Part shown: piece by piece, positions 35,959 through 51,345 of the stretch
How the letters are laid out: every line of letters begins with the position of its first letter
Position numbering within the stretch: position 1 is the stretch's first letter
Assembly: GCF_019063845.1 (NCBI RefSeq)
Contig: NZ_CP077683.1
Coordinates: 992,001 to 1,056,000 of the forward strand
From: Geomonas subterranea
GTDB taxonomy: Bacteria > Desulfobacterota > Desulfuromonadia > Geobacterales > Geobacteraceae
Length of the DNA stretch: 64,000 nt
Direction of reading: 5' to 3'
Program-made: the position numbers and the translations under genes
Notes under the pieces: model-generated
The model's input: only the letters and a program-made list of their open reading frames with translations
Database searches by the model: none
What the model was told of the DNA's origin: nothing

Positions 35959-37296
35959 GTGACCAACCACGTACCGCGCCTGCTGAAACTGGCAGGCCCC
36001 ATGATACTCTCGACCTCCGCCATCACGCTGATGCAGATCGTCGACGCCATCGTCCTGTCCCGGCACTCCAGCGCCGCGGTCGCGGCCATCGGCCCGGCCG
36101 GCCTCGCCGTCATCCTGTTCCAGGGCTTTCTCTTCGGCACTGCGGGGTATGCCGGCACCTTCGTGGCCCACAACCACGGCAGGGGCGACGCCGCCGGCGT
36201 GCGCAAATCGGCCTGGCTCGGTATCCATACCTCGCTTGCCTCCGGCGTCCTCGCCCTGGCCGTCGCTTGGCCTATCGGTCAGCTCTTCCGGCTGGCGGGT
36301 CACACTCCTGACGTCGCCGCCGACGAGATCAGCTACTTCACTATCTGCATGGCTGGTTCACTCTTTCCGGTACTGGGCTCCGCGCTGGCAGGCTGGCTTT
36401 CCGGTATCGGGCGCCCTGTCATCGGCACCGCGGTGACCTTCTTCTCGTTTGCTATCAACGCGCTGCTCGCCTGGGGACTGGTGCTGGGTGTCTGGGGCTT
36501 TCCGCGCCTGGGGATCACCGGCGCCGCGCTGGCCACCGTTTCGGCCCAAGGGGTTGCCGCGCTCCTCTACGTCGCAATTTTCGTTGCCGGCGGGGGATGC
36601 ACGGACCGTGGCGCCAGGCGCCTGGACGGCGTCGAACTGTCCCGCTTCTTGAAACTGGCCATGCCCATGGGGCTGCGCATCAGCGGGGAGCTTCTTGCCT
36701 GGACCCTCTTTCTCGTGGTGCTGGGGCGGCTGGGGACCGTGGAACTCGCCGCTTCCAGCATCGCTTTCCGGATCAACGGCCTGGCCTTCTTTCCCGCCCT
36801 CGGCCTCGGCCAGGCGGCCGGCATCCTTGTGGGACACGCCCGCGGGAGAGGGGAGGACGACGAGGTCCCGGCCATCGCCTCCCAGTCGCTGCTCGTGTGC
36901 GAGGTCTGGATGCTGGTGATGGCGGTACTGTTCGCCACCTGCTCGGCCCCGCTCATCGCCGTGTTCGCAGGACACGGCCCGGAGAGCGCCCGCATCGTAG
37001 AGACCGGCTCGCTAATCATGAAGTTCGTCGCCTTTTACTGCCTGTTCGACGCCGCCAACGTCATGACCGGCTGCGTGCTCTCTTCCGCCGGCGACACCAA
37101 CTGGGTCGCCCGCACCTTCGTCTATTCCTCCGCCGGTTTCCTGCTCCTCCTGTGGCTGATCGACAGCTTCATGCCTGGCCTGGTTGCCGAGTGGACGCTT
37201 GGTACCTGCTTCGTCCTGTTCACCGCCGTAATCTGGTCCCTGCGCTTCCGCTCCGGCGCCTGGAGAACGATCCGGGTGCTGCATGACTCCCATTGA
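35959..37296 (+). CDS. MATE-family multidrug/cation efflux transporter
   Basis: 445-aa inner membrane antiporter of usual family length, with about 12 membrane helices in two related halves. Helix 1 region is LLKLAGPMILSTSAITLMQI, followed by DAIVLSRHS and GTAGYAGTFVAHNHGRGDAA. The second half begins FLKLAMPMGLRISGELLAWT and includes AFRINGLAFFPALGLGQAAG. I chose GTG 35959, where homology to the family begins. The same frame stays open upstream to GTG 35785, but that segment is A+T-richer, not MATE-like, and overlaps the divergent gene's promoter. Substrate unknown. It stands alone between the orphan gene and cysH. Confidence 0.9.
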   Translation: MTNHVPRLLKLAGPMILSTSAITLMQIVDAIVLSRHSSAAVAAIGPAGLAVILFQGFLFGTAGYAGTFVAHNHGRGDAAGVRKSAWLGIHTSLASGVLALAVAWPIGQLFRLAGHTPDVAADEISYFTICMAGSLFPVLGSALAGWLSGIGRPVIGTAVTFFSFAINALLAWGLVLGVWGFPRLGITGAALATVSAQGVAALLYVAIFVAGGGCTDRGARRLDGVELSRFLKLAMPMGLRISGELLAWTLFLVVLGRLGTVELAASSIAFRINGLAFFPALGLGQAAGILVGHARGRGEDDEVPAIASQSLLVCEVWMLVMAVLFATCSAPLIAVFAGHGPESARIVETGSLIMKFVAFYCLFDAANVMTGCVLSSAGDTNWVARTFVYSSAGFLLLLWLIDSFMPGLVAEWTLGTCFVLFTAVIWSLRFRSGAWRTIRVLHDSH

Positions 37297-49690: not shown

Positions 49691-49864
49691 CCTGACCAGT
49701 TTTACTTCTCAATGTCAGTGGGGAAGGTGACTGCCAGTGAATTAGTGAGATGAGCTAAGTGTAATACGTGGGGGGATCAAACGTGCAGGTTGGTGGCTGG
49801 TACGCGCTGTAACAGGGACTTGCTGCTTGTGACAGTTCTGAAGATGTGACGAGAAGTAGAAACA

Positions 49865-49896
49865 AAAAACGCCCCGGCTGGAAAGCTGGAGCGTTG
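49865..49896 (-). terminator. Terminator after tRNA-Leu(GAG) copy 1
   Basis: Imperfect stem AACGCTCCAGC / GCCGGGGCGTT, followed on the minus strand by TTTTTTG. Confidence 0.65.
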
Positions 49897-49904
49897 TGTT
49901 TGTG

Positions 49905-49991
49905 TGGTGCCGAAGACGAGACTCGAACTCGTACAGGCTATCGCCCGCCACCCCCTCAAGATGGTGTGTCTACCAATTCCACCACTTCGGC
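49905..49991 (-). tRNA. tRNA-Leu (anticodon GAG), copy 1
   Basis: 87 bases with encoded CCA and a long variable arm. The anticodon loop TTGAGGG sits on stem CCATC / GGTGG, and the T arm has GAGTTCGAGTCTC. The sequence is identical to the copy at 50800-50886, including about 8 flanking bases. Confidence 0.95.
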
Positions 49992-50004
49992 AAGAAGAAC
50001 TCAT

Positions 50005-50033
50005 TTTTTAGCATCTGTTGAGGTCGAAGTCAA
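50005..50033 (-). promoter_or_regulatory. Promoter of tRNA-Leu(GAG) copy 1
   Basis: Minus strand TTGACT (50033-50028), 17-base spacer, TAAAAA (50010-50005). Confidence 0.55.
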
Positions 50034-50130
50034 GCTTTAACCGATGGTAAAGGACGATTGTTACTTGACCAGAAGGGAACAACTACAAACTCGAAGAACT
50101 GGATACTGCATGTCATGCAACGCATTCACC

Positions 50131-50663
50131 GCTCAGCGAATGCATTTGCCGGAGGATCGAACGCATCCGCCGCTCAGCGAATGCATTTGCCGGATGACGG
50201 AACGCATCCGCCGCTCAGCGAATGCATTTGCCGGATGACGGAACGCATCCGCCGCTAAGCGAATGCATTTGCCGGATGACGGAACGTATCCGTCGCTCAG
50301 CGAATGCATTTGTCGGATGACGGAACGTATCCGCTGCTCAGTGAATGCATTTGCCGGATGACGGAACGCATCCGCCGCTCAGCGAATGCATTTGCCGGAT
50401 GACGGAACGTATCCGTCGCTCAGCGAATGCATTTGTCGGATGACGGAACGTATCCGCCGCTCAGCGAATGCATTTGCCGGATGACGGAACGCATCCGCCG
50501 CTCAGCGAATGCATTTGCCGGATGACGGAATGCATCCGCCGCTCAGCGAATGCATTTGTCGGATGACGGAACGTATCCGCCGCTCAGCGAATGCATTTGC
50601 CGGAGGACGGAACGCATCCGCCGCTCAGCGAATGCATTTGTCGCGGTTGGGATGCATCTGCCG
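50131..50663. repeat. Tandem array of thirteen 41-bp units
   Basis: Units begin with GCTCAG (one GCTAAG) at 50131 and every 41 bases to 50623, with no length variation. Consensus order: GCTCAGCGAATGCATTTGCC, GGATGACGGAACGCATCCGC, C. Each unit holds the palindrome ATGCAT and an inverted repeat CGGATG-N8-CATCCG; variants with TATCCG keep a G-U pair. A degenerate half unit precedes it (50101-50130) and a decayed one follows (about 50664-50680). As 41 is not a multiple of 3, reading frames rotate and coding is not supported. It fills the gap between two identical tRNA-Leu genes. Confidence 0.95.
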
Positions 50664-50762
50664 GTTAGGGCAAAATTACAAGGCTGTTATCCTGGCGAAC
50701 TGCGAAAACGGACTGGGCAGGTGGAGTAGGGGAGAGGGATGGTGGCAAATCTGGAATGAAAA

Positions 50763-50790
50763 AAGGGTTACGGTGTTGACCGTAACCCTT
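50763..50790 (-). terminator. Terminator after tRNA-Leu(GAG) copy 2
   Basis: Perfect 12-bp stem AAGGGTTACGGT / ACCGTAACCCTT with loop GTTG; the minus strand continues TTTT. Confidence 0.88.
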
Positions 50791-50799
50791 GGTTTCTTT

Positions 50800-50886
50800 T
50801 GGTGCCGAAGACGAGACTCGAACTCGTACAGGCTATCGCCCGCCACCCCCTCAAGATGGTGTGTCTACCAATTCCACCACTTCGGC
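50800..50886 (-). tRNA. tRNA-Leu (anticodon GAG), copy 2
   Basis: 87 bases, base-for-base the same as the copy at 49905-49991, with the same anticodon loop and encoded CCA. It has its own promoter and terminator, so both copies look functional. Confidence 0.95.
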
Positions 50887-50899
50887 AAGAAGAGCTAAG

Positions 50900-50928
50900 T
50901 TTGTAACATTACTCGGCAGAGATGTCAA
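50900..50928 (-). promoter_or_regulatory. Sigma-70 promoter of tRNA-Leu(GAG) copy 2
   Basis: Minus strand TTGACA (50928-50923), 17-base spacer, TACAAA (50905-50900). Confidence 0.72.
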
Positions 50929-50946
50929 CAGCTAATCTCTAATTAA

Positions 50947-51345
50947 TTACTTTGCCGGAGCGGGTGCTGCAGGAGCAGCCGGTGCAGCGGGAGCAGGTGC
51001 CGCAGGTGCTACCGCGTTGCCGGGTGCCGCGGGTTTGACCGGTTGCTGCAACGGCATGCCGCCCATCGGTGCCGGCTTGACCTTGGGGGCCTTGGACATG
51101 ATGGAGGAGCCGCCGCCTTTGCCCGACACGAAGGCCAGGGAGAGGGAGGTCAGCATGAAGATGACCGCTGCGTACGTGGTCAGTTTACTCATGAAGGTGT
51201 TGCCGCCGCCCGCGCCGAACACGGACTGGCTGCCGCTGGCGCCGAAGGATGCGCCCATCTCAGCCCCTTTGCCGGACTGCAGCAAGACAACAACGATGAG
51301 GGCGAAACAGACGATGACGTGCAGGGTTACCAGTAAAAAAGTCAT
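50947..51345 (-). CDS. secG: Preprotein translocase subunit SecG
   Basis: 132-aa inner membrane component of the Sec translocon. Two membrane helices are seen: TFLLVTLHVIVCFALIVVVL (first) and LTTYAAVIFMLTSLSLAFVS (second). Between them lies the conserved LLQSGKGAEMGASFGASGSQ and VFGAGGGNTFMSK. The C-terminal 50 residues are a Pro/Ala-rich tail, longer than in E. coli but common in this group. ATG 51345 follows GGAGG at 11 bases; an in-frame ATG 51384 is less likely. It lies downstream of tpiA in the gap-pgk-tpi cluster, a frequent arrangement. Confidence 0.94.
   Translation of the reverse strand: MTFLLVTLHVIVCFALIVVVLLQSGKGAEMGASFGASGSQSVFGAGGGNTFMSKLTTYAAVIFMLTSLSLAFVSGKGGGSSIMSKAPKVKPAPMGGMPLQQPVKPAAPGNAVAPAAPAPAAPAAPAAPAPAK

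Follow-up and report, generated by a model that had tools for sequence, protein, structure and literature searches.

The tandem array that lies between two identical tRNA-Leu(GAG) genes of Geomonas subterranea is, with high confidence, a gene-less orphan of a family of arrays linked to genes, and there is little doubt that the module formed by gene and array is real. The arrays of this family fit a period of two turns of B-DNA (20-21 bp), whereas from one subfamily to the next their sequences are unrelated. The array was found in a stretch of 64,000 nucleotides, hereafter the window, from the genome of G. subterranea (G000; one contig, 4.99 Mb).

A preliminary description of the window had reported an identical pair of tRNA-Leu(GAG) genes together with an indel-free array of 41-bp units, and both were confirmed by ARAGORN, by sequence identity and by TRF. 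The downstream copy of the tRNA gene occupies positions 49905..49991 and the upstream copy positions 50800..50886, both on the minus strand, and the array extends from 50119 to 50640 (TRF: period 41, 12.7 copies, 93% matches, 0% indels). Its score is 904, against 74 for the best non-array entry among the window's 18 TRF rows. The array had also been said to fill the interval with 13 units; the 41-bp period and a count of 12.7 units stand, but the tRNAs lie 808 bp apart and the array accounts for 522 bp of this distance, the remainder being non-array flanks of 127 bp and 159 bp. Since TRF gives a second reading with a period of 20 (24.7 copies, 58% matches), the 41-bp unit consists of two half-units of about 20.5 bp each. 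The hairpin described in the unit, CGGATG-N8-CATCCG, is present, but shuffled units match the length of its 6-bp stem in 18% of trials, so that taken alone it is within chance. A coding array was considered and rejected on account of stops in the window unit and of 40-bp units in some other arrays (judged by eye). An Rfam scan of the window at the gathering score lists its two other tRNAs and no other RNA family, omitting both tRNA-Leu(GAG) genes called by ARAGORN.

One origin suggested for the array was the duplication of the tRNA gene. The tRNA-Leu(GAG) locus was located in 19 of the 19 genus genomes searched. Both copies were read in 15 of them and are identical within each genome, and a 41-bp array separates them in a single one of these 15, that of G. 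subterranea. The tRNA pair and the window array are independent of each other, and an array born with the duplication was rejected on this comparison. For the other four genomes, the fetched locus held one tRNA-Leu(GAG) copy (G007, G015 and G016) or none (G006), a contig end being close to the locus in G006, G015 and G016. Among the 15, the copies are 130-310 bp apart in 12 genomes and farther apart in two (625 and 922 bp); in G. subterranea the distance is 808 bp. The same interval in G001 (L039) contains about 34 copies of TGGGAC, which indicates that the inter-tRNA interval collects different repeats.

Absence from close relatives, which had been named beforehand as a mark of a neutral minisatellite, is thus observed at the tRNA locus but not for the array family. 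In an array search of 58 genomes, nine, the own genome included, gave a match at E 0.001 or better; an exact 24-mer search of genome contigs gave 0 matches. G000 itself carries two further large 41-bp arrays, at 36301-36840 and 2883196-2883655, and arrays syntenic with the one at 36301, behind the same gene, are found in at least seven congeners (G001, G002, G003, G005, G009, G010 and G017). The nearest arrays to that of the window are the array beside the G003 ortholog of the gene at G000:C1:35503 (78%) and the array of G000:C1:35503 itself (73%), and the window array falls in the same sequence cluster as the arrays beside the orthologs of this gene. No family gene was detected in the window with two profiles, hence the term orphan. 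A separate family of dispersed intergenic repeats was also seen, CCCTCTCCC-rich with an inverted GAGGG part and tandem copies of 42-89 bp (L154:9960-10380, L192:18430-18649, L196:12265-12435 and L012:13453-13671).

The gene at G000:C1:35503 encodes a 217-aa product with a weak fibronectin-III match (E 0.034). Proteins of the family, about 217 aa in length, comprise a helical domain, a basic linker and usually a fibronectin-III domain. In a family-based structure model (pLDDT 91) the N-terminal domain is helical and the C-terminal one adopts a fibronectin-III fold, and the basic inter-domain linker is present in 35 of 35 proteins. Foldseek retrieved fibronectin domains only and no known DNA-binding fold with the whole protein, and no match better than E 0.76 in the PDB with the helical domain alone (model pLDDT 90). 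Pfam and NCBIfam yielded only weak fn3-type matches for the family proteins and no match to a replication initiator or a ParB-type protein; nor was a nuclease or Cas match obtained, and the PADLOC defence search matched 0 of 6 proteins. In PHROGs, three of six proteins match tail proteins, solely over the fibronectin part. Some members are short and consist of the helical domain and a basic tail, without the fibronectin domain (L241:1498-1875, L242:1372-1770, L243:1426-1908, L233:1492-1950, L235:1444-1944 and L232:1366-1773); arrays adjoin those of L242 and L233. The ratio dN/dS is 0.09-0.26 in 15 ortholog pairs drawn from six orthologs, with dS near saturation in most pairs.

In the genomes of the phylum that were sampled, the protein family is lineage-specific. 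With profile A1, built from 35 proteins and used at E 1e-6, each of the 19 genus genomes contains between at least 7 and at least 17 members; in addition there are at least 21 in G024, at least 2 each in G020 and G023, and at least 1 in G046, all of these numbers being lower bounds among the best 25 candidates per genome. In total 23 of the 117 relatives searched were positive. The full profile matched 2 of 395 genomes of the phylum, namely the own genome and G046, where the match is fibronectin-only within a 1121-aa frame, and the helical-domain profile matched one of 297, the own genome; close relatives were sparse in these phylum samples, and members do occur in G020, G023 and G024. The closest named relatives of one member are in Geomonas azotofigens, diazotrophica, edaphica and oryzae (98-89% identity).

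Linkage of gene and array was assessed on 70 family genes chosen by protein match rather than by array, with the exception of the seed gene, which was met via its array; these 70 are a subset of all matches, and for two of them (L087 and L129) too little downstream sequence was available. An adjacent TRF array is present at 57 of the 70 genes, downstream at 48 and upstream only at 9, while 13 have none. When the same criterion was applied to control segments that follow long open frames in the same genome, 29 of 500 were positive, the like-for-like comparison being with the 48 of 70 downstream arrays. One of the 29 positive controls is a long 20-bp array, itself beside a family gene, and the next best score 340 and 179 and are of a CCCTC-rich type. 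By autocorrelation, 55 of the 70 family genes lie above the highest of 93 control tiles, several only just. An even 1.264-Mb sample of the genome, window included, contains 18 arrays with at least 3 copies and a period of at least 15. Two of these are long arrays of the family kind, one beside a family gene and the other the window's own, and five more, with a period of 21 or 42 and a length of 64 to 220 bp, lie away from family genes. Of the 15 family members of G000, 12 are clearly accompanied by an adjacent array, whereas at the other three the array is short or weak. The gene at G000:C1:4926345 has two short 21-bp arrays nearby (L258:1996-2059 and L258:2234-2289), with a perfect operator-like palindrome, TGTAACCGTTACA.

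Downstream arrays begin 86 to 388 bp past the stop codon, and the spacer between gene and array is 63% pyrimidine on average. A strong hairpin (-20 kcal/mol or below) follows the stop codon of 42 of 48 family genes, compared with 24 of 100 random segments, which suggests that the array probably lies outside the transcript of the family gene. In the window, a 12-pair terminator-like hairpin with a T run intervenes between the upstream tRNA and the array (50790-50763, minus strand); the pattern scan that detected it is a consensus match, with 2 sites found versus 1.4 expected in shuffles. This hairpin makes it unlikely that the array is copied into RNA by read-through from the tRNA, as had been proposed. 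The arrays could instead be transcribed separately or antisense, giving hairpin chains with a function as RNA. The folding of the consensus units speaks for such a role, since both strands fold better than shuffled sequences over 44 arrays (mean z -1.36 sense and -2.05 antisense; z below -1.64 in 15 of 44 sense and 24 of 44 antisense). Yet hairpins set the arrays apart from their genes, a terminator-like site lies between the tRNA and the window's array, the period suits turns of B-DNA, Rfam matches in the window are restricted to tRNA, and no sigma-70-like promoter site was found in 49700-51000. A structured RNA is improbable.

Sequence comparison placed 71 arrays (the G003 hisG array having been entered twice) in 41 clusters, and units differ between subfamilies. 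By contrast, a fundamental period of 19.9-21.0 bp, with a median of 20.5, fits 53 of the 54 arrays that were long enough among 58 array entries, the sole exception being a 146-bp duplication upstream of one gene. The scan covered 15 to 26 bp and multiples thereof, and because multiples were accepted a 41-bp array scores 20.5 whether or not its halves are alike. The periods assigned by TRF itself are 20-22, 39-42, 58-63, 80-84, 102, 120-126 and 202, and 146 for the exception. Windows around the multiples would admit an estimated one-fifth or so of arbitrary periods up to 130 bp; a fit of 53 in 54 is thus far from chance, with the reservation that arrays of common descent would not be independent. 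The window array has the family period, 41 bp being 2 x 20.5, in keeping with its second TRF reading. The idea that the units are spaced by helical turns consequently gains partial support, from the period common to these 53 gene-linked arrays.

The units themselves carry a further signal. In the 35503 orthogroup, a gap-free alignment was obtained for 53 units drawn from nine arrays, including that of the window (53 of 96 candidate units were used, in phase and distinct, and the cells counted are sequences, not events). At the dyad formed by columns 22-31 of this unit, 95.5% of cells are paired versus 83.3% in shuffles, 31 cells are doubly changed versus 11.0, and covariation amounts to 0.479 versus 0.266, each of these values being reached in 0 of 500 shuffles. 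Two other measures of the same dyad are not clearly raised: the number of pairs with a double change (3 versus 2.7 in shuffles) and that of further pair types (8 versus 6.8, reached in 34 of 500 shuffles). The second dyad of the unit (dyad A) shows no covariation, and over all arrays dyad stems exceed chance (p < 0.05) in 12 of 48 units. The protein-binding array put forward in the preliminary description is favoured, short of proof, by the two-turn period and by the one covarying dyad.

Two of the three known orphan arrays of G000 sit at places that, in other species, are taken by cassettes differing in sequence. One is the tRNA-Leu(GAG) site, which in G007 contains a full cassette, a family gene with a 21-bp-type array, between tRNA-Leu(CAG) and tRNA-Leu(GAG), and in G015, near a contig end, an array related to that of G007 (84.5%). 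The second large orphan array of G000 lies 3' of hisG. Here G001, G003, G004 and G009 carry a family gene oriented with its 3' end towards an array, and G002, G005 and G013 a reversed family gene without a TRF array; in the other 11 genomes neither family gene nor array was seen within the fetched flanks. Family genes or arrays of various kinds are thus present 3' of hisG in 8 of 19 genomes, and beside tRNA-Leu(GAG) in 3 of 19. The third orphan is a short array of period 42 at G000:C1:4674131 that is similar to the array at 868073, and the 7 kb fetched there contain no family gene; likewise, no family gene lies within about 7 kb of an array on G024:C33. Such a distribution could be produced by a mobile cassette, in which gene and array transpose or recombine together, the array serves as recognition site and orphans are copies moved in trans. 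The varied occupancy of the two sites, the 15 members in one genome and the orphan arrays of G000 and G024 all agree with mobility. However, the family proteins contain no recombinase or transposase domain, one member gave no match in viral contigs and another none in plasmid and phage collections, and neither target duplications nor clean boundaries were established. I regard a mobile cassette as improbable.

The main rival of a binding function is a neutral satellite, according to which a repeat of roughly 20 bp originated a single time behind an ancestral family gene, was multiplied along with the genes and undergoes sequence drift through slippage and unit conversion; its period would persist by descent, its palindromes by hairpin-templated mutation, and orphan arrays would be left-overs. 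Array similarity follows protein similarity as this predicts: arrays are similar in 0 of 1392 pairs below 40% protein identity, in 2 of 128 at 40-60% and in 67 of 133 at 60% or above. The same relation is, however, predicted by joint descent and by cognate pairing alike. Inner units of an array are alike while edge units have diverged, and the 13 of 70 genes without a TRF array also fit neutrality. G009 holds two copies of one gene-array locus (L060:7007-7736 and L061:6989-7554), and their arrays, of 17.8 and 13.8 units, differ by 164 bp, exactly 4 x 41. On the other hand, the period is held at 20-21 bp or multiples although the sequence is saturated, one dyad keeps pairing through double changes, and the same sites are taken by unrelated arrays with different family members, so that a neutral account must explain both a period that does not wander and the repeated use of the same sites. 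A neutral minisatellite would show neither a constraint on period or sequence nor a functional tie to a gene family; here the sequence drifts, the period does not, and the arrays accompany a gene family. Neutrality is a distinct possibility, but well short of an even chance.

The reading that I favour, at nearly an even chance, is that the arrays are iteron-like docking platforms on DNA for the cognate family protein. A protein, in all likelihood the cognate member acting through its helical domain and basic linker, would bind the half-units on one face of the helix and assemble along the array; each subfamily, having its own unit sequence, would thereby possess a private address. Orphan arrays, that of the window among them, may be extra sites in trans for the G000:C1:35503 protein, or relics of a cassette that has lost its gene. 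Docking is suggested by the two-turn period, constant across unrelated sequences, by the dyad that covaries, by the linker's basic character and by the location of the arrays beyond a hairpin. The frequency of arrays beside family genes relative to controls, the rise of array similarity with protein similarity and the dN/dS values also speak for it. Against it stand the lack of a known DNA-binding fold, the fact that joint descent would likewise make arrays and proteins vary together, the genes without a TRF array and the second dyad without covariation. Within the 35503 orthogroup, moreover, the array of a 79%-identical G013 protein is closer to another type. The better-than-shuffled folding of both strands, which also counts against docking, is what an RNA role would lead one to expect as well.

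Comparison with known systems bears on the docking reading. In iterons, direct repeats of about 17-22 bp follow one another in helical phase and are recognised by a replication initiator whose gene lies nearby. The present arrays resemble plasmid iterons and partition sites in being direct repeats of about two turns near a protein gene, with phased half-sites (here about 20.5 bp), but they are chromosomal, belong to a family with about 15 gene copies in one genome and change their unit with the subfamily, and the family proteins match no replication initiator or ParB-type protein. REP/RAYT systems are characterised by a gene for a RAYT-type tyrosine transposase. With REP/BIME and RAYT the present family shares palindromic intergenic repeats, a linked gene and gene-less copies elsewhere, whereas the protein here is not a transposase but combines a helical and a fibronectin fold, and the arrays are regularly tandem at a fixed period. 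CRISPR arrays, which have unique spacers between their repeats, and similar guide arrays are likewise regular and adjacent to a protein gene; here there are no unique spacers, full-length units are 93% alike and no nuclease or Cas protein is matched.

Closer to the organism, the main text on the Geobacter bemidjiensis genome describes intergenic direct repeats of 6-42 nt, multicopy and present throughout, and leaves them unexplained; it also describes three riboswitch-linked fibronectin-type-III genes (PMC2996986). These repeats are intergenic, of a similar size range and from a related bacterium, and they probably include some arrays of the present family, although that main text ties them to no gene family or fixed period (PMC2996986). 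A literature search of main texts found no published link between such arrays and the gene family, which points to a gene-and-repeat module so far undescribed in these soil bacteria.

In one genome, private addresses and orphan arrays together raise the tentative and rather unlikely prospect that some 15 protein-array pairs work side by side to mark, tether or regulate different sites on the chromosome. Paralog after paralog is accompanied by its own array, in which the letters vary and the spacing stays constant, and the family therefore amounts to a natural experiment on the purpose of repeat spacing. If the proteins do not bind their arrays, these bacteria harbour a family of satellites in which the period has outlived the sequence, an unusual situation in its own right. 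If they do, the bacteria would possess many orthogonal DNA-address systems, and binding would account for part of the unexplained intergenic repeats noted in the main text on the Geobacter genome of 2010 (PMC2996986).
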